Part shown: positions 16,861 to 32,762 of the stretch, one piece after another
Numbering within the stretch: position 1 is the stretch's first letter
How the letters are laid out: each line of letters begins with the position of its first letter
From: Desulfovibrionales bacterium
GTDB taxonomy: Bacteria > Desulfobacterota > QYQD01
Direction: 5' to 3'
Length of the DNA: 64,000 nt
Assembly (NCBI GenBank): GCA_028715605.1
Contig: JAQURM010000002.1
Coordinates: 186,001 to 250,000, forward strand
Program-made: the position numbers and the translations under genes
Notes under the pieces: generated by a model
Database searches by the model: none
What the model was told of the DNA's origin: nothing
Seen by the model: the letters and a program-made list of their open reading frames with translations, nothing else

Positions 16861-18070
<1,210 letters not shown>

Positions 18071-18130
18071 GGCGCAATCCTTTTTCCGGTTTTTTCCCTG
18101 TCGCGCTTCATACGACCGCCGTGCCAGCGG

Positions 18131-18327
18131 CAGTTGTCCGGAATTTTCGGACAACTGGTGCGATGCAAAAATAATTAGCTGCGTTGTTGACATATGAACT
18201 GTTGCATCTTTTGCAACAGCTCGTTGCCAAGAGTTGTCGACATCCTGTCGACGACTGAACCTCCAAGGGGGGTACAATTTGTACCCCCTTCCCAACCCAT
18301 CGTCGCTACCCGTGACAAATTGTCACG
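18131..18327 (-). promoter_or_regulatory. Cluster of five inverted repeats between cas6e and cas1
   Basis: The 289-bp gap (18071-18359) carries five unrelated inverted repeats: CAGTTGTCCG/CGGACAACTG (18131-18157, 10-bp stem); CTGTTGCA/TGCAACAG (18199-18219, 8 bp); AGTTGTCGAC/GTCGACGACT (18232-18256, 10 bp with one wobble); GGGGGTAC/GTACCCCC (18268-18288, 8 bp); CGTGACA/TGTCACG (18311-18327, 7 bp). Loops are 3-7 nt. Centres of the last four are 34-41 bp apart. None has a T-tract. They could be RNA hairpins in the cas mRNA, a small RNA, or stacked operators controlling cas1-cas2. Confidence 0.8.
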
Positions 18328-18359
18328 ACTTCACTTCCCATCCGCACGAGCCCGAACGC

Positions 18360-19040
18360 TCACACCCGCCTCACCAGCATGAGACCGCAGCCGAAGGCTT
18401 TGGCAGAACCTATCCCTTGAAATAAAACTTTCTTGAAGCCTTCAGGCGACGTCACAAGAAGTGTTCCATCTAAATCCAGCGAGGAAAAAGCGATATCAAA
18501 TGTGCCAGCTTTATTTGTCTTCCTGAACTCATGCCACTCATGCTGGGTCACTTGGAAGTCAATTAATTCAAACCCATTATGTTCGCCTTGACGTTTCATC
18601 CATTCCGAAGCTGCCATATGTGCTATTTCCTGATTTGAAGGCATTTCAATCGGGGCCCGTTCATCGCGCAATTTCTTCTTTTTTGCAATCACGATGTCTG
18701 TCTTTTTTAGTTTTCCGTTTTCTTCGTATCTTTTTTTGCAAGCTGAGACTCGTACAGAAAATATGAGTCGTTCGCCATTTACAATCGCCGGATTATATGG
18801 CTTAGCATCCACATACCATGGTGAATTATCAGGGGCAAATGGTCGTTTGTGCGATACTGTATAGATAACCGGATTTCCCCTGATCTTTTCCGTACGAAAT
18901 AGAAAATCTCGTCCACCTCCGTTAGTTGCTAATAAATCCCAGACAGTTTGATGAAGGGCATAATCCTCGGTGCTTACGTGAGACCATACACGTTCTACTG
19001 GATTAATGCCATCTTTAAGCATAATTCTGCTAAAGATCAT
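18360..19040 (-). CDS. cas6e: CRISPR RNA endonuclease Cas6e (Cse3/CasE)
   Basis: 226 residues. Begins MIFSRIMLKDG; YALHQTVWDLL holds the conserved catalytic His of Cas6e, and the C-terminal GIGSAKAFGCGLMLVRRV is the glycine-rich RNA-binding loop of the family. It cleaves the pre-crRNA at the base of each repeat hairpin and stays bound as part of Cascade. The ATG at 19040 overlaps the cas5e stop in an ATGA junction; the frame extends further upstream only inside cas5e. Confidence 0.95.
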   Translation of the reverse strand: MIFSRIMLKDGINPVERVWSHVSTEDYALHQTVWDLLATNGGGRDFLFRTEKIRGNPVIYTVSHKRPFAPDNSPWYVDAKPYNPAIVNGERLIFSVRVSACKKRYEENGKLKKTDIVIAKKKKLRDERAPIEMPSNQEIAHMAASEWMKRQGEHNGFELIDFQVTQHEWHEFRKTNKAGTFDIAFSSLDLDGTLLVTSPEGFKKVLFQGIGSAKAFGCGLMLVRRV

Positions 19041-19816
19041 GGCAACGCCTCCTTTGGCCATGCAGCATATTTGACCATGCGCGATGAAAAAGTCCACGAT
19101 GTTCGCGACACTGGCAAGTCATTATGCGTTCTCGTCATGATCGGCATACCTGCAAGAGGGTTTCCTAGTGAAATACCTTCTTCCCAATAAACAACAGACT
19201 CTTTTCGGTCCTGTAATGGTTTGATGCTGTCAAATTGCTTAAATCGCGTCTCGGCAGTGAGAAAAGCTTCCGAGAGCGTATTGCATGGCACTGTCTGAGG
19301 TTCGAGCGGCAATCCTACAGGGCAAGATTTTCTCCCGAGATATAGCGGAAACCTTGGGCATGTCAACTTTTCTGTGACTGTTTGAAATGTCGGGAAGCTT
19401 TCATTTTTTCGCCAGATAACGACTGTAGCGAGAAAATCAAGAAGGTAATAGCGACTCGTTAAGATAAGGGAGTTTTTCCAGTCGTCTTTTTTCTCCTTAA
19501 GCGCTTGCCTTATTCGTTTTATTTCCTCATGGCGTGTGGCACACAACGACTCCTCATTTTGCTTATAAGTGAACACTGTATGATAATCACCGAGGGGTTG
19601 TTCTGCCGCATGATCAACTTTAATAGCCATGCCGAATGATGTGGCAAATTCACTCCAGAAGCCTTCCGGTTCACTTCTTCTCAGGCCAAGCGCAGCTCCA
19701 ATGAGACCGGCGATTGCTGATTTTGTAGGGGCATGGAGAGTTGGCCGCCGCCTCGTAAGGGTTGTATCACCCCAAGATGCCATCGGGCCGAATAGTCTGA
19801 AGGCTAAGAATTCCAT
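19037..19816 (-). CDS. cas5e: Cascade subunit Cas5e (CasD)
   Basis: 259 residues starting MEFLAFRLFGPMASWGD, the Cas5 N-terminal ferredoxin-like fold signature, with RRRPTLHAPTKSAIAGLIGA following. Cas5 caps the 5' handle of the crRNA in Cascade. It is separated from cas7e by 8 bp and overlaps cas6e by 4 bp, so the Cascade genes form a tight operon. Confidence 0.95.
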   Translation of the reverse strand: MEFLAFRLFGPMASWGDTTLTRRRPTLHAPTKSAIAGLIGAALGLRRSEPEGFWSEFATSFGMAIKVDHAAEQPLGDYHTVFTYKQNEESLCATRHEEIKRIRQALKEKKDDWKNSLILTSRYYLLDFLATVVIWRKNESFPTFQTVTEKLTCPRFPLYLGRKSCPVGLPLEPQTVPCNTLSEAFLTAETRFKQFDSIKPLQDRKESVVYWEEGISLGNPLAGMPIMTRTHNDLPVSRTSWTFSSRMVKYAAWPKEALP

Positions 19817-19824
19817 TGTTCACC

Positions 19825-21093
19825 TCACTCTTTATTCAATTCGGGAAGGTCGCGGCAAAATTCAGCCAGTTTTTCACATGAACCGACTCGTTTGTGAATA
19901 TCGAAAATGTATTCACCTGTTTTCTCATCGGGTTTGGCGAATGAGTAAGCTGAATCGAAATCGGTCTTAACCTTTTTTAGTGCTTCTATCGAATCATTAA
20001 CGACATCCTCACTTCGGATCGGTTTCAGGAATGCCGCGGCAAGAGAACGGGGTTGAATCGGCCCTTTTTCGGCAAGTACAAAAGATGCAAGAGCCCGTGA
20101 TGCGTGTGAATTTTGCTTTCCCCCTGGTGAAACAGAGACCAAAGAGTAAACAAGGGCATCTACAACATCTTTTGCAAGTTTACGGTCCTTCAAATTTTCT
20201 AAAAGCGTTTTCGTGTCGAGGCATACGTACAGATAATAAACGCCGGAATTGAAACCAGCGGAACTAACAAGCGCTGCGCCTCTTTTGTTAATGTCGTCAA
20301 CAGCCGTAAAATAATCGACTTCATTGACAATAGGATGCACTGTGAAACTATGGGCAACCTGACATGCTGCTTCCACATTCCAATCAGGGCGTGATGCCGA
20401 CATACGACCGAAAAGTGAAATATCAATGGAAGGAGCATAATCCTTTGCGTAGATCTCCATTTGTTCAGCCAACTTATCTGCAACAGGATTTTTTTGGGCT
20501 TGGCTTTGTCTTTTCTTGTTGCCCTTGTCAGCTTTTTCTTCCTTTTCTTTTTTTGATGCTACATCCTTGCGCAATTTCTCGATTTCGTCGATATAAGCAG
20601 GATGCTCTTTCTTTTTCACATAGGTGGCGATGTCCGCAGCAATTTTCTCAAGCGCTTTGACTTCACCAGCCTTGATAACAATCACCTGGTTGTGCGAAAA
20701 TTTAGCCCATTTGCCATCGTCTATTTCTGGCTCCGTTTCATCGAGATTCTCGCTTTTTGGATCGGATGCGTCTTCGTCTACCTTGCCGCCAAGCATCTTA
20801 AATACATCCGTAGACCAAAGCCTAATTTCCGCTTCTGGAACTTCATGTTCCTCCAAGCATGGCGCAAATATTGCGGAAACATATTTCCTCGTGTGCAGAC
20901 CCTTTACTAGACTTCCAAATACATCACCATTTCGATACCAGTATTTATTGCACTGTGACGATATTCTTCCACGATTGACACTGCCAAATTTCGCAGTTTT
21001 CGGCATCCCTGACTCATCACGATTCAAGTTCGACGGTGGATAGGCCGTAAGAATGTGAAGCTGCAGAAACGTATTTTGTTTTTCTAGTTTCAT
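19825..21093 (-). CDS. cas7e: Cascade backbone subunit Cas7e (Cse4/CasC)
   Basis: 422 residues, somewhat longer than the E. coli protein (about 360). The N-terminus NTFLQLHILTAYPPSNLNRD and GRISSQCNKYWYR are typical Cas7e. The extra length is a Lys/Glu-rich charged stretch (about residues 175-205, KKEKEEKADKGNKKRQSQ), probably an exposed loop. Six copies form the helical backbone along the crRNA in known I-E Cascades. AAGGAG lies 9 nt before the ATG. Confidence 0.95.
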   Translation of the reverse strand: MKLEKQNTFLQLHILTAYPPSNLNRDESGMPKTAKFGSVNRGRISSQCNKYWYRNGDVFGSLVKGLHTRKYVSAIFAPCLEEHEVPEAEIRLWSTDVFKMLGGKVDEDASDPKSENLDETEPEIDDGKWAKFSHNQVIVIKAGEVKALEKIAADIATYVKKKEHPAYIDEIEKLRKDVASKKEKEEKADKGNKKRQSQAQKNPVADKLAEQMEIYAKDYAPSIDISLFGRMSASRPDWNVEAACQVAHSFTVHPIVNEVDYFTAVDDINKRGAALVSSAGFNSGVYYLYVCLDTKTLLENLKDRKLAKDVVDALVYSLVSVSPGGKQNSHASRALASFVLAEKGPIQPRSLAAAFLKPIRSEDVVNDSIEALKKVKTDFDSAYSFAKPDEKTGEYIFDIHKRVGSCEKLAEFCRDLPELNKE

Positions 21094-21110
21094 ATTGTTT
21101 TCTCCTTTTC

Positions 21111-21611
21111 TTAAATGTCTGTATTACCATGATATCTATAAAGCCAATCACGCCGTGTCCAGTCATTCCAATTGACAACAGCATCCGCTAGATCAGTAAT
21201 GTTTGCACGGTCTCCCATTATCCGAATGGCCGAAGAAAGTTCCCTTATTACGTCCTCATGCTCTTCTGCGGCGAGGATACGCTTCAATCGCATTTTCGAT
21301 ATGAAAGGCGTGCCCTTAAATTTTTCTTTTGCCATTTGTGCCGCAAAGAAGTTATTACCGTTGTGATACCTGATCCGCGCAACAAGGGCAGCCGCAACCG
21401 CCACTTTATCTGAGTTATATGAATTTAAACCGTAACCTGCTTTTCTGAGCCTGCGAATTAGGACATGGTAAAACCCAACTTGTGCAACATCCAAAGGCGT
21501 TTGCGCTCGCCTAAGCTCGGCCCGGGCCGCTGTGTGCTTCGCCAATTCTTTGCGCCATGCCATAAGAATATCACAAGCCTTCTCGTCACCGTGGAATCTT
21601 ATTCTTTCCAC
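21111..21611 (-). CDS. cse2: Cascade small subunit Cse2 (CasB)
   Basis: 166 residues, all-helical and basic, with the family-like N-terminal segment and the repeated RIRYHNGNNFFAAQMAKEKF / MRLKRILAAEE pattern; identity is secured by its place between cse1 and cas7e. A Cse2 dimer stabilises the R-loop. GTG start at 21611 preceded by AGGAGG (spacing 6), overlapping the end of cse1. Confidence 0.92.
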   Translation of the reverse strand: MERIRFHGDEKACDILMAWRKELAKHTAARAELRRAQTPLDVAQVGFYHVLIRRLRKAGYGLNSYNSDKVAVAAALVARIRYHNGNNFFAAQMAKEKFKGTPFISKMRLKRILAAEEHEDVIRELSSAIRIMGDRANITDLADAVVNWNDWTRRDWLYRYHGNTDI

Positions 21612-23163
21612 TTTTGTCCTCCTTCCTCGTCTTATAGAGATTACTTAATGATTTTATTAGAATAGCTCTATGCTCTGCGACAATACTCATCGTTCCTGAA
21701 TTAAAGGCATCAAACTCAGCGAACGAATCGAATACATTGATGGCATGGAATTTTACTTGTTTGCTCCAACTCAGCAATACTTCTTCCAGGCTTATATCGC
21801 CAGAGACAACATCCAGCAATCTTTTTACATGCAAATAGAAATCTTGCTCTGAAACCTGCCAGAAGCGAGTAGAAAACGGCTCTTTATCAATTACGGGCAA
21901 CTTCACCTTTCTCCCTTTCTCGCCTTTAGCAATCAATGCTATCGCCTTACCTGCGTACTTTTGCAAATGTTCTGCAGCCTTCGTAGCTATGTCCACCAAT
22001 TGATGTACCACATGCTCTGCATCTTTTTCTGCTAATTTATCTCCAGTGGGGAGAGAAATAATAGAAAACTCTCCATCGTCCCAAAAAAGAGCCATTTTTG
22101 AGCTACAAACATATCCGAACGCCCATAGTTTTTCTGCTTTATTTCTTTGCTTCGCAGCAATTATGCAGGGTGCAGGTTCTGCCCGCGTCAATGCAAGCCA
22201 ATGCTTGTAGCGCGCACCATATTCGCTGTGGTCAAATAACTTGTAAAATGGTTTCTCATCATTTATCTTTACTGGTGACAATGGATGAAACCAATTCTCG
22301 CCGGTCTGTTTTCTGCCCTTTGAATCGATACCGTAATAGTGCACACCTCTTGGGCTTGAAACTACCTTTGTCACACATGTGTCCTCGCCATGACAAAGCA
22401 TACAGTTACCCTTATTAGTGCTCTTTAGAAAAACCCTCCGAGGCATTTGCCAGTAGCAATGGAGAAGTGACACATCTTCTGATTTTAATTCGACCCGCTC
22501 CGTTGATGTTAGAGCCCAAGGGAATATATCTTCAGGCATGCTTTTCTTGGCGTTTCCATACTTTTCGACTGTACTCTTCCCCATAACGTTGAGCCAACAA
22601 GTTTCCCACAATGTTTCCCCCTTCACAATAGTTGTAAATGCATTGGCAGCGCGTATATTTTGTCTGTGACCGCTTCCCCCGGAATAGGCTCTTACTTGCA
22701 ACGTGTAAAGCACAGCGGTCATACATGAAAGACAGAGGGATTCCATTCGTTGTTTTCTGAAATGAGACCGGTTAGCGTCAATATCGATGAGAAGTTCGCC
22801 AGGATCGAGTTCTTTCTCATTTGTTTCATCACGAATTGAACGATCTTGCATAAATCTGATACCGTCACCAAGCAGATTGAAATATGGCGCAAAGGGTTCA
22901 AAGGCAGCATGCAGTTTATCAGAATCAGGATTATTGTAAACATACGACCAGTCCATACCTTTGACACGCTCATCCGGGCAATAGAATGTTTGTAGCATCC
23001 CGATAAGCATTTCTACAACGGTTGCATCAAGGTCCGGGCGGTTAAAAGCAAGGGAGACCGCCGGGTTGCTCCGGGGGTTCTTCGCTAACTCATACGGCGC
23101 AATCTTCACTCTCCGCCCGTCCTTCAGATAAACCGGCAACCAATCACTCAAAAGGATATTCAC
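21586..23163 (-). CDS. cse1: Cascade large subunit Cse1 (CasA/Cas8e)
   Basis: About 525 residues. The N-terminus NILLSDWLPVYLKDGRR matches the family's (N)LL-D-W-PV opening. A Cys-rich segment CMLCHGEDTC lies mid-protein, as in Cse1 proteins with a zinc site. Cse1 reads the PAM and recruits Cas3. The GTG at 23163 with GGAGG five nt upstream is preferred; a GTG at 23175 would add four residues. It overlaps cse2 by 26 bp and follows cas3 by 28 bp. Confidence 0.94.
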   Translation of the reverse strand: MNILLSDWLPVYLKDGRRVKIAPYELAKNPRSNPAVSLAFNRPDLDATVVEMLIGMLQTFYCPDERVKGMDWSYVYNNPDSDKLHAAFEPFAPYFNLLGDGIRFMQDRSIRDETNEKELDPGELLIDIDANRSHFRKQRMESLCLSCMTAVLYTLQVRAYSGGSGHRQNIRAANAFTTIVKGETLWETCWLNVMGKSTVEKYGNAKKSMPEDIFPWALTSTERVELKSEDVSLLHCYWQMPRRVFLKSTNKGNCMLCHGEDTCVTKVVSSPRGVHYYGIDSKGRKQTGENWFHPLSPVKINDEKPFYKLFDHSEYGARYKHWLALTRAEPAPCIIAAKQRNKAEKLWAFGYVCSSKMALFWDDGEFSIISLPTGDKLAEKDAEHVVHQLVDIATKAAEHLQKYAGKAIALIAKGEKGRKVKLPVIDKEPFSTRFWQVSEQDFYLHVKRLLDVVSGDISLEEVLLSWSKQVKFHAINVFDSFAEFDAFNSGTMSIVAEHRAILIKSLSNLYKTRKEDKSGKNKIPR

Positions 23164-23191
23164 ATATACCTCCACAAAGCCTGGCTCAATT

Positions 23192-25843
23192 TCATTGTTC
23201 GGTAACCTGCAATCCTTTGCTATGACTATACTCGATTTTGACCACTTTCTCCTTCTTATTTACTGCCCGGCCGACCCACCACTCTCCGTTTTGCGACAGA
23301 ACAACAAACACTCGTTTTTTCCTTACAGTCTTGGTAGCTGCAATCTCTTCCTTCTCGGCGGAATTTTCCTCGTAGATAAGGGCGCTCCTTATCGTAAGGC
23401 TGGACGCATCCCATCCGTGCTTTCCAATGTTATGCAAAGGACAAATTTTCCCGCTTTTATCCCTTTTGCACAGAACAACGGTAGATGTAGGTGCGCCAAG
23501 TCTTGTCGGTGCGCTCTCATCATCAAGCCATGTTTTCCATCCTTCCGGCGAATAGCCCTCATCGAAGTCAAGGGCTTTCAACCTTCCCATTTGCGCATCT
23601 GCGGCATCGTCGCCGATGCTCCGGGTTTCCGATGATAACAGCGGTTTCGGTATTTCAGTATCACCTCTATAAACAAACTCGATCATTTCACGAGCATCAA
23701 ATGGCATCCGAAAGCTTCCATGATCCACAAGCCAGCGTGCGGTTAACCACAGTTGCCCCCAGTGACGATAGACATAGTGGGCAGTCCTCGGGAACATGAA
23801 TGAGTACCAGTCACGTCTGTCAACCTTATCAGGATCGGGCATAAGAACATAGAGAATGCGCTCATCTCTGATACGATGGCGATGGAGTCTGCCCGAACGC
23901 TGAATAACTGAATCGATGGGAGAAAGGTCTGTAATCATAACATCAAAATCAACGTCAAGTGACTGTTCAATGACTTGTGTTGCAATCACAAGCTTCCCTC
24001 TCCGCTTTTTAGTTGATGTTTTGATTCCGAACAAAGTTTCCACTTCCATCCCAATCCGTAGCCGGTCCCCGAGGGTGAATCTGGCATGAAATAGGATGGG
24101 CTTAAACTCAAGACATTTCTCATAGGCTTCATAGGCATCAATTACTGTATTTCGAACCCAACAAACACATTTGCCATTTGATACAGACTGCTTGATAACT
24201 TGTATGGCTTGATCGAGACTGTGAATCGTTATAACTTTGACTGGCCGGTAAGAAGGCCGTTTGTCCATTTCAGCATCGTTTGGCAATGGAATTGGCAACG
24301 GTGGCTTTATATTTTCATCATACTGCGTGATAAGAGGAAACGAACCCTCTTTTAAGGTTACAACATCATTACCTCTTCCCTTTGCAAAGGCATTTACAAG
24401 TTTCATTCGCAGCCCTGTGGGAATCGTCGCCGATAGAAGTATTGCGCTCCCCCCTTGTGCAGCGTGGTAAGCCAGCAACTCCTGAAGTATCTCCAGAACG
24501 TAAGGTTCACACGCATGTATCTCATCGATCACAAGAACTTTTCTCGAAAGCCCAAGGAGCCTCATAGACTGGTGTTTGACTCTGAGCGCACCCATAAGGG
24601 CTTGGTCTATCGTCCCTACCCCCACATGCGCCAGAAGTGCTTTTTTACGACTATCGGCTATCCATGCACTGCATTCGGTAACCGAATCCTCCTCATGGTC
24701 TTGTCCGGTGGCAATATAACGTTCCAAAGCAAGTGCTGTCGCTCCCGCACTATGAGCAAGCACAATACTGGGCCTACCGCCTCTATAAAATTTTCGGTAA
24801 ACTTTGCGTATTCGCTCATACATTCTATTTGACGTCGCCATGGTAGGAAGGGCGAAATATATTCCATCTCCTCGTCCAGCCATCATCAGACGATGCGCTA
24901 TCACAATCGCGGCCTCGGTTTTACCTGTCCCCGTAGCATCTTCAATAATAAAAAGAGTCGGCGTGGCATCGATTTCAACTGTTTGTGCCAGTGTTTGCAA
25001 TTCTGTAGGCTGTTTAATAGTTGGGAAAAGGCGTCTCATGCCTGTTTTCGAAGATACTCCAATGGGTTTCAATCCGCATTCACTGAGGGCTTTTTTAGCA
25101 TTTGGCAGAGCTTTTTTCTCCCAGTACATCTTCAACGTATCAACGGGCTTACTGTTGGTTGGTAGATCTGCATATCGAAACCAAGTAGGATTTGAGCCTA
25201 TCCAGTCGGATATTATTATAAGCCCAGCTATGATCCATGATGCGTGATTATAGTCGGCCTTTACTTCACTCCCTATGACAGGCATTTGGCCGTTTAGGAA
25301 GATTTTTGCAAGATCGTCGATTAATAGCTCTAGCTCGTCACATCTATCAGGTGGGAAACATTGTCGTAACATGACAGAAGTTCCATCCTGCCGAGGCGGA
25401 TGACCATGATGGGCAAGAGATGCAAAACACCAAGCATCAAACCTGTAGCTCAAGTCAATTTTGTCACGAAGCTGCTGCATCGAAGGCAGTTCGTTCCAGA
25501 TACGCCACCCCGGCAACACGTGTCCGATAAATGATCTTTCCCCCTCCCGGTTATCATCACAGGGCTTTTGTATGGATATGGACTCTTGAAAGGGCACGCT
25601 TAGTTTTCCTATATCATGAAAAGATGCAAAAAATGAAACGACATCAAGAATGTCATCAGGGGTTGCTCGCAAAATAGCGCTTAACGAAGACAAGAGATTG
25701 CTATGCATTTTGAGATAAGTTCGCGCCACCGCCGCAACATCCAGACAATGGTACACCAGCGGATGCCATTTCGGCTCGCTAGGATAGTTCGGGTCAGCCT
25801 TCCCCCAATACCGATAGTAGCTTTTGAGTTCCGCTTCTTTCAT
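23192..25843 (-). CDS. cas3: CRISPR-associated helicase-nuclease Cas3
   Basis: 883 residues in one chain. N-terminal HD nuclease: HPLVYHCLDVAAVART, then ASFHDIGKLSVPF with the metal-binding HD pair. Superfamily 2 helicase: IEDATGTGKTEAAIV (motif I), VIDEIHACE (DExH box), LLSATIP (motif III), TQVIEQSLDVDFDVMITD and QRSGRLHRH (motifs V/VI). It is recruited by Cascade and degrades target DNA. The ATG at 25843 is preferred; a GTG 21 nt upstream is possible. The palindrome at 25888-25931 lies in its 5' leader. Confidence 0.96.
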   Translation of the reverse strand: MKEAELKSYYRYWGKADPNYPSEPKWHPLVYHCLDVAAVARTYLKMHSNLLSSLSAILRATPDDILDVVSFFASFHDIGKLSVPFQESISIQKPCDDNREGERSFIGHVLPGWRIWNELPSMQQLRDKIDLSYRFDAWCFASLAHHGHPPRQDGTSVMLRQCFPPDRCDELELLIDDLAKIFLNGQMPVIGSEVKADYNHASWIIAGLIIISDWIGSNPTWFRYADLPTNSKPVDTLKMYWEKKALPNAKKALSECGLKPIGVSSKTGMRRLFPTIKQPTELQTLAQTVEIDATPTLFIIEDATGTGKTEAAIVIAHRLMMAGRGDGIYFALPTMATSNRMYERIRKVYRKFYRGGRPSIVLAHSAGATALALERYIATGQDHEEDSVTECSAWIADSRKKALLAHVGVGTIDQALMGALRVKHQSMRLLGLSRKVLVIDEIHACEPYVLEILQELLAYHAAQGGSAILLSATIPTGLRMKLVNAFAKGRGNDVVTLKEGSFPLITQYDENIKPPLPIPLPNDAEMDKRPSYRPVKVITIHSLDQAIQVIKQSVSNGKCVCWVRNTVIDAYEAYEKCLEFKPILFHARFTLGDRLRIGMEVETLFGIKTSTKKRRGKLVIATQVIEQSLDVDFDVMITDLSPIDSVIQRSGRLHRHRIRDERILYVLMPDPDKVDRRDWYSFMFPRTAHYVYRHWGQLWLTARWLVDHGSFRMPFDAREMIEFVYRGDTEIPKPLLSSETRSIGDDAADAQMGRLKALDFDEGYSPEGWKTWLDDESAPTRLGAPTSTVVLCKRDKSGKICPLHNIGKHGWDASSLTIRSALIYEENSAEKEEIAATKTVRKKRVFVVLSQNGEWWVGRAVNKKEKVVKIEYSHSKGLQVTEQ

Positions 25844-25887
25844 ACTGCTCGTAAGATATATCACCCGTCAAATTATGTCGTAGTAGA

Positions 25888-25931
25888 TTTCCACCACACG
25901 GCTACCGGAAGCCCAGCGTTTGTGGTGGAAA
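25888..25931. promoter_or_regulatory. 44-bp palindromic element upstream of cas3, copy 1
   Basis: TTTCCACCACA (25888-25898) and TGTGGTGGAAA (25921-25931) form an 11-bp perfect stem around GGCTACCGGAAGCCCAGC-like inner sequence. A relative lies at 28147-28192 upstream of the WYL gene, where the stem reads CCGCCAC/GTGGCGG: an A-T pair has become G-C on both arms, so pairing is conserved. It could be an operator shared by the two genes, or a dispersed hairpin repeat. Confidence 0.7.
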
Positions 25932-25943
25932 ATCAATCGCTTT

Positions 25944-28146: not shown

Positions 28147-28192
28147 TTTTCCGCCACACGGCTACCGCAATCCCAGCATTTGTGGCGGAAAA
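28147..28192. promoter_or_regulatory. 46-bp palindromic element upstream of the WYL gene, copy 2
   Basis: TTTTCCGCCACA (28147-28158) and TGTGGCGGAAAA (28181-28192) form a 12-bp perfect stem; the interior (CGGCTACCG-AA-CCCAGC-TT) matches the copy at 25888-25931 at most positions. It lies about 83 bp before the WYL start. Confidence 0.7.
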
Positions 28193-28215: not shown

Positions 28216-28316
28216 ACCGTTTGAACCGTTCAAACAGTTCAAACAGGTTAGACCGTTCAAGCAGTTCGAGCCGTTTAAGCCGTTCGAGCCGTTTAAGCCG
28301 TTCAAACCGTTTTGTT
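28216..28316. repeat. Nonad tandem repeat array, downstream of the four-helix-bundle gene
   Basis: About eleven degenerate 9-bp units, in gene orientation C-N-G-Y-T-Y-R-A-A (for example CGGCTTAAA, CGGCTCGAA, CTGTTTGAA). The last codons and stop of the four-helix-bundle gene (KTV then TGA) lie in the first unit. A matching array of about eleven units lies on the other side of the gene. Confidence 0.9.
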
Positions 28317-28766: not shown

Positions 28767-28785
28767 GGTTATCCTCTCCATGAGT

Positions 28786-28888
28786 GTTTAAACCGTTCAA
28801 GCTGTTTAAGCAGTTTAAGCTGTTTGAGCAGTTCGAGCCGGTTAAGCAGTTTAAACTGTTAAAGCCGTTTGAACCGTTTAAACAGTTA
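28786..28888. repeat. Nonad tandem repeat array, upstream of the four-helix-bundle gene
   Basis: About eleven 9-bp units in gene orientation (CTGTTTAAA, CGGTTCAAA, CAGTTTAAA, CTGCTTAAC, CAGCTTGAA and similar), same unit type and number as the array on the other side. Translated it gives a spurious Asn/Leu-rich peptide. Confidence 0.9.
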
Positions 28889-28943
28889 AATATTTGTGGA
28901 TTGTAGGGCAGGGGGTGTTCAAATGTCAATTAAATTGCAGTCC

Positions 28944-30098: not shown

Positions 30099-32762
30099 CT
30101 AACTTGTTACAATAATTCTACTTATATTCCGGCGCTTATACCACTTCTCTATCTCCACTGCCCAGAAGACCACGGATGACAGAAGAAGACAGGCCATAAG
30201 TTCTGAAAAACTCAGGGCTTGCGTCTTGAATATACCATGAAGCGGCGGGATGTAAATGGTCGCCATCTGGAGCCCAAAGGTGAGCAGAAAGGCTCCGAGC
30301 AGGGGACGGTTGGTAAATATCCCCTGCTTAAAGATCGACTCGGTTTCCGACCTGATAGCCAGGACGTGCCCCATCTGCGAAAGACAGAGGACGGTAAAGA
30401 CCATGGTCTGCCAGTGGGCGTGACCGGTCCGGATAGACCAGGCCTGGGTAAAGATAGACGCAAACCCCATGAGGAGCCCTACCCAGATTATATGGACGCC
30501 AAGACCATGGGCAAAGATGCTTTCCTGAGGGTGTCGCGGCGGCCTGTTCATCACGCCTTTTTCTGCCGGTTCGGCGGCCAGGGCCAGGCCGGGAAGCCCA
30601 TCCGTGACCAGGTTGATCCAAAGTATATGAATCGGCAAAAGAGGTATAGGGAGTCCCAGAAAGGGCGCAAGGAATATGGTCCATATCTCTCCGGAGTTGC
30701 TGGTCATGGTATATTTTATAAACTTGCGGATGTTGTCAAAGATCCGCCGGCCTTCCTTGACGGCCTTTACAATGGTGGCAAAGTTGTCGTCGAGAAGTAT
30801 CATATGGGCGGCCTCTTTTGAGACGTCGGTCCCGGTAACGCCCATGGCGATGCCGATATCGGCCCTTTTTAAGGCGGGGGCATCGTTAACGCCGTCCCCG
30901 GTCATGGCCGCGAATTGGCCTTTATCCTGTAGGGCCTTGACTATCTTCAGTTTCTGCTCAGGGGCCACCCTTGCATAGACGCGGATATGCTCAACCCTTT
31001 TTTCAAAGTCCTCCAGGGATAATCTATCCAGTTCTCTCCCTGTGATTACGGCCTTTGAACCATCCTCAATAATGCCGAGCCTCCGGGCTATGGCCTTTGC
31101 CGTAAGGGGGTGATCCCCGGTTATCATTACCGGCCTTATCCCGGCTGTCTTGCATAATGTTACCGCCTCCCGGGCCTCTTCCCGGGGCGGATCCATCATG
31201 CCTATAAGGCCCAAGACAGTAAGCCCGGTCTCGACACTCTCAGGAGACATATCCTCAGGCAGGCTATCCCACTCTCTCATAGCCATGCCAAGGACCCTCA
31301 GTCCGTCAGCGGCCATCTTTTCATTTATCTTGATAATCTCTTCTCTGTTCATTGATCTTGGCCCTTCCGATGTCAAAACATCCTTTGACCTATCCAGCAG
31401 GACATCTATAGCGCCCTTTGTGAAGGATATGTATCCGTTCTTTTCTCCAGACTCCAGACTTCTGACTCCTGACTTCTTGTGGAATGTAGTCATGCACTTT
31501 CTATCAGAGTCAAAAGGAATCTCGGCAACCCGCGGGAAATCCCTTTCCAATTCCCCTTTATCAAAGCCGTTGTCCTTTGCGATGTTATACAGCGCGATCT
31601 CGGTGGGGTCTCCGATTATATTTCCTCCGGAATCCGGCCGGGAGTCATTGCTTAAGGCGAGCGCCCGGAAGAGGGTGATGAGTGATGAGTGATGAGTAAT
31701 GGGTTGTAACCCGTCGCTCGTTACTACCTTTCCATCTACATAGACTTCTTCCACGGTCATCTTGTTGAGGGTGAGTGTGCCCGTCTTGTCGGAGCAGATG
31801 TAAGTAACAGAACCGAGGGTTTCCACGGCCGGTAGTTTTCTTATGAGGGCGTTTTGCCCGACCATCTTATTCGCGCCGAGGGCGAGGGATATGGTTATTA
31901 CCGCCGGGAGCGCCTCCGGGATGGCTGCAACGGCCAGGGAGATAGCGGTAAGGAGCATCAAAAAGACCTGTTCTCCCCTCATAATGCCCACGGTAAAAAC
32001 AATAGCGCATATAGCCAGGACAGCAAGGGCCAGCCTCCGGCCAAAGGTCGCCAGTCTCTTTTGCAGGGGCGTCTTGACCTCTTCCTCCTCCTGTAGCATG
32101 GTGGCAATCTTGCCAAGCTCTGTATCCATGCCTGTGGCTATGATAACACCCGCGCCGCGCCCATAGGTTACAAATGTGCCTTTGTAGGCCATGTTCTTAC
32201 GGTCGCCGACGGGTAAAAGCTCATCACGGAGCGCCTTTGTGTGTTTTTCAACGGGCACGGATTCACCGGTGAGGGCCGCCTCTTCCACCTTCAACTGGGC
32301 GGCCTCAATAAGTCTCAGATCTGCCGGCACGACCTTCCCGGCCTCAAGGAGCGCCAGATCGCCGGGGACGAGCCGGGATGCAGGGATATTTTCAGGGGTT
32401 CCGTTTCTCATGACCGTGGCCGTCGGGGCCGCCATTTTTTTAAGGGCGGCCATGGCCTTTTCCGCACGGTATTCCTGGACGAATCCAATAATGGCGTTCA
32501 GGATGACGATTACCGCTATGGCGATGGTATCCGAAGGCTCGCCGATGATTCCCGATATAACCGCGGCAGCCATGAGGACAAGGATCATGAAGTCCTTGAA
32601 CTGGTCGAGGAACATCATGAAGGGGGTCTTTCTCTTTTTTTCCTTTAATTCATTAGGCCCGTATTCCCGCAGCCGTCTCTCCGCTTCCTCCGAAGAGAGG
32701 CCCTTAAGTGAGGAACCCAGCTCTTCAATAACCTCGTCTATCTTCTTCTGATGCCAGCGCAT
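30099..32762 (-). CDS. Cation-transporting P-type ATPase (type II), riboswitch-controlled
   Basis: 887 residues, full length. Actuator motif TGESVPV, phosphorylation site CSDKTGTLTLNKM, nucleotide-binding KGAIDVLLDR, hinge MTGDGVNDAPALKRADIGIA, membrane helix 4 IPEALPAVITISLALG, and a C-terminal cation-ATPase domain. The N-terminal domain and PEALP motif put it with Ca2+/Mn2+-type (SERCA/PMR1-like) pumps. A yybP-ykoY riboswitch in its leader points to Mn2+ export. Two short stretches look like in-frame repeat insertions: GVRSLESGEKN (DNA 31444-31476) and PITHHSSLIT (31673-31704), both in the nucleotide-binding domain. AGGAG precedes the ATG. Confidence 0.94.
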   Translation of the reverse strand: MRWHQKKIDEVIEELGSSLKGLSSEEAERRLREYGPNELKEKKRKTPFMMFLDQFKDFMILVLMAAAVISGIIGEPSDTIAIAVIVILNAIIGFVQEYRAEKAMAALKKMAAPTATVMRNGTPENIPASRLVPGDLALLEAGKVVPADLRLIEAAQLKVEEAALTGESVPVEKHTKALRDELLPVGDRKNMAYKGTFVTYGRGAGVIIATGMDTELGKIATMLQEEEEVKTPLQKRLATFGRRLALAVLAICAIVFTVGIMRGEQVFLMLLTAISLAVAAIPEALPAVITISLALGANKMVGQNALIRKLPAVETLGSVTYICSDKTGTLTLNKMTVEEVYVDGKVVTSDGLQPITHHSSLITLFRALALSNDSRPDSGGNIIGDPTEIALYNIAKDNGFDKGELERDFPRVAEIPFDSDRKCMTTFHKKSGVRSLESGEKNGYISFTKGAIDVLLDRSKDVLTSEGPRSMNREEIIKINEKMAADGLRVLGMAMREWDSLPEDMSPESVETGLTVLGLIGMMDPPREEAREAVTLCKTAGIRPVMITGDHPLTAKAIARRLGIIEDGSKAVITGRELDRLSLEDFEKRVEHIRVYARVAPEQKLKIVKALQDKGQFAAMTGDGVNDAPALKRADIGIAMGVTGTDVSKEAAHMILLDDNFATIVKAVKEGRRIFDNIRKFIKYTMTSNSGEIWTIFLAPFLGLPIPLLPIHILWINLVTDGLPGLALAAEPAEKGVMNRPPRHPQESIFAHGLGVHIIWVGLLMGFASIFTQAWSIRTGHAHWQTMVFTVLCLSQMGHVLAIRSETESIFKQGIFTNRPLLGAFLLTFGLQMATIYIPPLHGIFKTQALSFSELMACLLLSSVVFWAVEIEKWYKRRNISRIIVTS

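Follow-up and report, generated by a model that had tools for sequence, protein, structure and literature searches.

The 289-bp gap between cas6e and cas1 in a type I-E cas operon of a Desulfovibrionales bacterium holds five near-perfect palindromes, and every one of them matches a palindrome in a BRO-N, RhuM or DUF1016 gene, or in the leader of one, at 44 to 56 bits. Genes of these families occupy the same junction in related cas operons. We suggest that the five hairpins are gene-less copies of the palindromes of such defence-embedded cargo genes, and that the array is a record of past or incoming occupants. We give this explanation about an even chance of being right.

The operon lies in the window, by which we mean the whole 64,000-nucleotide stretch of DNA that was analysed. 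Its genes run on the minus strand in the order cas3, cse1, cse2, cas7, cas5, cas6e, the 289-bp gap, cas1 and cas2, and a CRISPR array of about 63 repeat-spacer units lies downstream of the operon. The features are the following:

16861 to 17166, minus strand: cas2 (Pfam Cas_Cas2CT1978)
17147 to 18070, minus strand: cas1, 307 aa (Pfam Cas_Cas1; relatives by tblastn)
18131 to 18157, minus strand: hairpin 1, RhuM-type palindrome CAGTTGTCCGAAAATTCCGGACAACTG (on the minus strand it reads VVRKFRTTAA); 33 bp at 94% to the RhuM gene of L062, including 7 nt past the palindrome
18196 to 18222, minus strand: hairpin 2, RhuM-type palindrome GAGCTGTTGCAAAAGATGCAACAGTTC; 25 to 26 bp at 96% to the RhuM genes of L045, L063, L141 and L146
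18232 to 18256, minus strand: hairpin 3, BRO-N-type palindrome AGTCGTCGACAGGATGTCGACAACT; 30 bp at 93% to a unit of the L032 leader array (DUF1016 gene) and 29 bp at 90% to the BRO-N gene of L029
18268 to 18288, minus strand: hairpin 4, BRO-N-type palindrome GGGGGTACAAATTGTACCCCC; 24 bp at 100% to the BRO-N genes of L030 and L040, including 5 nt past the palindrome
18311 to 18327, minus strand: hairpin 5, BRO-N-type palindrome CGTGACAATTTGTCACG (reads SEVVTICHG); 32 bp at 97% to the BRO-N gene of L019, including 11 nt of upstream flank
18339 to 18359, minus strand: probable remnant of a second Cas6e 3' end (AFG..LVR), at the gap start
18360 to 19097, minus strand: cas6e (Pfam CRISPR_assoc)
19037 to 25864, minus strand: cas5, cas7, cse2, cse1 and cas3, the remaining type I-E effector operon (Pfam)

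The gap starts of the window and of two related loci, L016 and L032, look like a second 3' end of Cas6e. The stretch from 18339 to 18359, together with the flank of hairpin 5, matches locus L026 (40 bp, 90%), and duplicated "LMLVRRV" ends also precede the arrays of L016 and L032. Such a second end would be expected if a new effector module had joined upstream of the old junction. The cas1 frame is open through most of the gap (18071 to 18295, minus strand, with a TTG at 18295). The closest Cas1 relative lacks such a gap, and therefore this extension is probably not translated. Elsewhere in the window, a 45-nt direct repeat (89%) with the internal dyad TTTCCACCAC...GTGGTGGAAA lies just upstream of cas3 (25888 to 25932), with a second copy 2.3 kb off (28148 to 28192). 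Two 9-bp tandem-repeat arrays of the GTTCAAGCA/GTTTAAGCC type lie about 500 bp apart (28216 to 28311 and 28785 to 28890).

The earlier note had called the hairpin cluster in the gap non-random, and the counts bear this out. At a stem of at least 7 and a loop of at most 9, the gap holds five hairpins with scores of 8 to 10. Among 1,000 dinucleotide shuffles, 846 had no such hairpin, 142 had one, and 12 had two. The gap also folds strongly as RNA, with z-scores of -5.3 on the minus strand and -6.1 on the plus strand, which were equalled in 0 of 200 shuffles. It is the sole cluster of at least three such hairpins within the window. A 400-kb sample of this genome gave one comparable cluster only, a set of three in-frame palindromes in an ORF6N gene. 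The window palindromes are nearly intact, with few broken pairs; hairpins 1 and 3 each have one internal mismatch. That there are five near-perfect palindromes was thus correctly noted before, but the loops, given as 3 to 7 nt, are 1 to 5 nt when the arms are fully extended, and the hairpins, described as different in sequence, are not unrelated to each other or to known genes. No intrinsic terminator (a G+C-rich stem followed by a T run) was found in the gap, and no Rfam family matched there. The palindromes are spaced 34, 35, 41 and 65 nt from centre to centre, near the 36- to 39-nt period of the in-gene tandem copies described below.

CRISPR repeats and integron attC sites are likewise rows of hairpin-forming units. 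Unlike a CRISPR array with its variable spacers, however, the gap units share no constant repeat, and there are no spacers or cassettes between them. We also considered remnants of CRISPR repeats (CreA-like) and saw by eye no similarity to the array repeat CGGTTCATCCCCACGCCTGTGGGGAACAC.

The matches of the units to cargo-gene palindromes exceed what palindromy as such would give. When the arms were shuffled with palindromy kept (100 sequences per unit), the best scores were 28 to 32 bits, and the real units scored at most 22 bits against an equal amount of ordinary DNA from their own genome. Moreover, the units carry the sense-strand flanks of the matched genes, so that each consists of the palindrome plus 0 to 11 nt. 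Hairpin 3 has its best match in the array unit of a DUF1016 leader, and its match to a gene is weaker (34 bits). Hairpin 5 is also 93% identical to an antirepressor gene on a Candidatus Megaera plasmid, and a palindrome like hairpin 1 occurs in the BRO-N gene of L021 in another codon phase. From these alignments, the assignment of hairpins 5, 4 and 3 to BRO-N genes and of hairpins 2 and 1 to RhuM genes is well supported. The window array itself is gene-less, and its units stand in different frames, away from the fixed codon site that they have in genes. A single decayed gene as the source of the array was rejected, since the units differ in reading frame and their matches fall into two families. 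Pfam models detect neither a BRO-N nor a DUF1016 gene in the genome, which leaves units 3 to 5 without a local source. Near-identical dispersed copies were not found either: the patterns of hairpins 1 and 4 each occur at a single place in the genome, and the 400-kb sample showed no dispersal. The AGTTGTC-GACAACT pattern was present in only 8 of 395 genomes, and a search of viral contigs with the array patterns gave no match.

Inside the BRO-N, RhuM, ORF6N and DUF1016/YhcG genes, a near-perfect palindrome of 17 to 35 nt sits at one or two fixed codon positions per family. The survey loci are a sample, and family membership was assigned by BLAST seeds and Pfam searches. Among loci taken from the phylum, 39 of 44 RhuM, 32 of 36 ORF6N and 14 of 29 BRO-N genes had hairpins whose arms measured 8 bp or more, and within each family these nearly always shared a single codon position. 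Most DUF1016 genes examined had one or two hairpins at similar positions. Arms of this length occurred in the palindrome region of 76% of RhuM, 81% of ORF6N and 48% of BRO-N genes, versus 2.5%, 1.6% and 0% in other segments of the same genes. The best stems were 9.9, 11.2 and 7.8 bp, respectively, compared with 4.7, 5.0 and 4.5 bp in synonymous-codon shuffles.

The symmetry covaries, and it is kept at the level of DNA. We aligned 36 RhuM windows on the flanking protein only and found Watson-Crick pairing of 76% with 111 double-sided changes; slid-arm controls reached at most 30% and 25, respectively. The paired cells comprised 256 Watson-Crick, 2 G-T and 6 C-A cells in the 30 windows counted, which were those already mostly paired. 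With only 2 G-T against 6 C-A cells, the conserved feature is not an RNA helix of the message strand. The wobble counts of ORF6N and BRO-N agree, but they come from hairpins preselected for pairing, and hairpin calling, which allows one mismatch, is biased against wobble pairs everywhere except in the protein-anchored RhuM test. The codon phase of the palindrome centre (twice the centre modulo 6) is 0 in ORF6N, 2 in BRO-N and 4 in RhuM, and palindromes that resemble each other (GTTGTCCG...CGGACAAC) differ in reading phase between BRO-N and RhuM. The palindrome is also exchanged as a module: BRO-N pairs in which the following 60 aa are 97 to 100% identical carry unrelated palindrome modules. 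Where palindromes stand in tandem within a gene, the period is 36 to 39 nt, with an A/T-rich centre between two half-sites.

Two genes illustrate the tandem arrangement. In E. coli K-12 MG1655, yhcG, a gene of unknown function, has three in-frame palindromes 39 nt apart (L253:5130-5237; EIHQTMSGEL, LGIPQTPSAEFP and AKIWQTLSAKSF). The ORF6N gene of the window's own genome (L090:10236-10339; C2, about 30236 to 30339) has three tandem in-frame palindromes, LRSQIVTLE, LRFQIGTSK and IRSQFATLN, also with a 39-nt period. Immediately upstream of this ORF6N gene is an apparent hsdM-type methyltransferase gene. The RhuM palindrome is present in genes of a Phocaeicola plasmid, a Vibrio plasmid, a Streptococcus satellite phage and a siphophage; it was not found in the RhuM of Wolbachia phage WO, and a RhuM scan of viral contigs confirmed none. 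Of eight BRO-N relatives fetched from viral contigs, two had the palindrome by anchored search. RhuM is found between hsdM and hsdS on plasmids of Rhodobacter and Roseomonas. Its occurrence in restriction operons was described earlier, with a proposed role as a toxin (PMC3710099). A RAYT transposase was considered as mover of the palindromes and set aside, with a single candidate seen: in one locus (L005:1830-2318), an ORF that by eye reads as a RAYT-like, REP-associated Y1-type transposase lies directly upstream of a palindrome-bearing RhuM gene.

At the protein level, the AlphaFold model of BRO-N is weak (mean pLDDT of 59) and puts the residues encoded by the palindrome in a low-confidence turn that leads into a beta hairpin. 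A fold search with this model gave no significant match, and we found no solved structures related by sequence to RhuM or YhcG. YhcG proteins carry a PD-(D/E)XK nuclease domain, and the YhcG-type domain was predicted to resemble Holliday-junction resolvases (PMC1189080). We speculate that this nuclease could suit a role in a palindrome exchange process.

To describe the junction in other operons, we fetched 47 loci with a Cas1 relative and measured the distance from the last effector gene to cas1. The gap was absent in some; in many it was 0.6 to 2 kb and held a gene in the direction of the operon. Pfam was checked for examples of the cargo families. The slot held BRO-N in L019, L020, L021, L029, L030, L040, L049, L052 and L056, among others. 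RhuM or RhuM-Fic occupied it in L018, L023 and L042, and a DUF1016/YhcG nuclease in L016, L028, L032 and L044. In L045, a RhuM gene adjoining cas1 is truncated directly after its own palindrome. Judged by sequence, the slot also holds Fic (L022, L024 and L027), BrnT/BrnA (L015 and L034) and small four-helix proteins (L037 and L041). In PADLOC, the family examples matched PDC-S13 (BRO-N), PDC-S02 (YhcG), PDC-S23/S05 (RhuM) and PDC-S05 (ORF6N). Genes embedded in immune operons are reportedly defence candidates (Payne et al. 2024), and the slot cargo consists of these very candidates (PDC-S02, S05, S13 and S23), inside CRISPR or restriction operons. A Geobacteraceae locus has a cluster of another type between its cas genes and cas1 (L050:2487-3270), made up of near-identical REP-like palindromes, GGGCGATC...GATCGCCC.

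The closest relative, from the same genus (L014/L066 compared with window 16861 to 19816), has 97% identical Cas1 and 100% identical Cas2, but its Cas6e and Cas5 are only 27% and 35% identical, and its gap is 2 bp. Therefore, the effector half has been exchanged beside the gap. The earlier note was right that the architecture is conserved while the stems differ. Among the related type I-E loci, homologous arrays of this kind were present in L032, L016/L017, L026 and L044, but not in this closest relative. L032 has hairpins 5, 4 and 3 in the window's order and direction, ahead of a DUF1016 gene. L044 has hairpins 4 and 3 and a hairpin-1 type before DUF1016, and L016 and L017 have a decayed version of the array with hairpin 4 intact. 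L026 has types 5, 4 and 1, and its left flank matches that of the window over 40 bp; an apparent hicAB pair follows, and then cas1. This HicA/HicB-like pair (L026:3422-3893) lies in opposite orientation between the gene-less array and cas1-cas2. No effector genes were found upstream of the L026 array. The arms in L016 and L032 have lost pairs without compensation, which suggests that there the units are relics rather than constrained sites. The same-genus genome G001 carries two palindromes of this kind in a restriction operon, between hsdS and a BRO-N gene. An upstream hairpin array was not seen as a general partner of DUF1016 outside the cas slot. In L269 (G418, C205 near 7843), three RhuM- and BRO-N-type palindromes lie in apparently non-coding DNA outside the cas slot.

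The scenario that we propose starts from what the comparisons show. BRO-N, RhuM, ORF6N and DUF1016/YhcG genes keep their palindrome as DNA, and the short module is exchanged or rewritten while the surrounding protein stays constant. The cas6e-cas1 junction is a cargo slot, in which genes of this kind come and go. Each unit of the array, a palindrome with 0 to 11 nt of sense flank, would be a remnant or copy of a former or incoming cargo gene. The palindromes may be sites or products of hairpin- or cruciform-directed recombination or copying, and we infer that a process of this type moves and maintains them. The array would then be a largely unselected record of three BRO-N and two RhuM alleles and would not regulate cas1-cas2. 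The units keep almost exactly the palindrome, unlike the products of simple gene decay, which counts against this scenario. The near-intact state of the window palindromes fits selection as well as youth.

The main rival is an operator array, which we consider unlikely. Here, dimeric proteins of the BRO-N, RhuM or ORF6N type would bind the palindromes, in genes for autoregulation and in the gene-less array to control cas1-cas2 or a cargo gene. Dyad symmetry in the DNA without wobble, the A/T-rich centre between half-sites, the period of about 36 to 39 nt and the annotation of these families as DNA-binding or phage regulatory domains would all suit it. There is also a precedent in RptR, where type I restriction operons carry identical 6-bp palindromes in the promoter that are read by one repressor, so that a defence island is repressed through a row of palindromes (PMC12255303). 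That system resembles ours in having such a row in a defence operon. However, the palindromes described here are long, all different and mostly inside genes. Their sequence changes completely between proteins that are otherwise nearly identical, and therefore one conserved DNA-binding surface cannot read all of them. The lack of a BRO-N gene (by Pfam) in the array's genome and the loss of symmetry in the L016 and L032 units also speak against operators.

A mobile palindromic element of the RPE, REP or MITE type, moved by a transposase and inserting into genes and operon gaps, seems quite improbable. It would account for the recurrence of palindromes across families and codon phases, for the in-frame tandem copies in ORF6N and yhcG, and for the copies after hsdS in G001, and mobile-type palindromes in protein-coding sequence have been described (PMC2996958, PMC10969869). 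However, nearly all members of a family have the palindrome at the same fixed position, neither shared ends nor target duplications were seen, and the searches with the hairpin 1 and 4 patterns, the AGTTGTC-GACAACT pattern (8 of 395 genomes) and the 400-kb sample revealed no dispersal in genomes. Rickettsia palindromic elements likewise lie within open reading frames without disrupting them, but they measure 100 to 150 bp and are dispersed through the genome in unrelated housekeeping genes (reviewed in PMC10969869; PMC4316617). Ours are 17 to 35 nt, hypervariable and restricted to one or two sites per family. The palindromic amphipathic repeat coding elements (PARCEL) encode a 25-aa amphipathic repeat of surface proteins (DUF285) (PMC2996958). 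They share with our palindromes the coding DNA, the in-frame tandems, the wide spread by horizontal transfer and a dyad symmetry of unknown function. By contrast, we found single short near-perfect palindromes at fixed sites of BRO-N, RhuM, ORF6N and DUF1016 defence-operon genes, plus gene-less arrays. The units, 17 to 27 nt and gene-less, form no 25-aa amphipathic tandem repeat of the DUF285 type, and their host genes are BRO-N, RhuM, ORF6N and yhcG.

The earlier note had favoured a structured RNA specific to the cas transcript, and this is the least supported of the functional readings. Such an RNA would uncouple cas1-cas2 from the effector genes by processing or attenuation, or would pair with the mRNAs of cargo genes through identical palindromes. 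The strong folding on both strands, the position between the effector and adaptation halves, and the capacity of palindromic RNA copies to pair with each other are in line with it. However, G-U pairs are not tolerated, there is neither a terminator nor an Rfam family, and in most related cas loci the slot is empty or taken up by a gene. The same palindromes occur in coding sequence of BRO-N, RhuM, ORF6N and DUF1016 genes, in restriction operons, plasmids, phages and E. coli K-12. We therefore regard this reading as very unlikely. Chance or ordinary hairpins (terminators or REP), which the commonness of single hairpins would favour and nothing further does, are refuted by the dinucleotide shuffles, the arm-shuffled palindromes and the lack of a terminator, and have next to no chance of being the answer.

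Tentatively, and in the expectation that it will probably prove wrong, we consider that the four families of defence-embedded genes share a hypervariable self-complementary DNA cassette at a fixed site. A dedicated hairpin-directed process would swap the cassette whole and would also build the gene-less arrays in CRISPR and restriction operons. These arrays would then store or record alleles, or provide cross-immunity against competing cargo. The coding palindromes are a widespread feature and are likely to be new as a class; no description of them or of gene-less arrays was found in the open-access literature that was searched.

For the window, this wider explanation replaces that of a new regulatory RNA in type I-E loci. 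The three in-frame palindromes of E. coli K-12 yhcG make the choice between a DNA-level and an amino-acid role directly testable by recoding. BRO-N, RhuM, ORF6N and DUF1016/YhcG are common and poorly understood anti-phage candidates, and a variable DNA palindrome within a constant protein offers a way into the question of how they diversify and pass from one immune operon to another.
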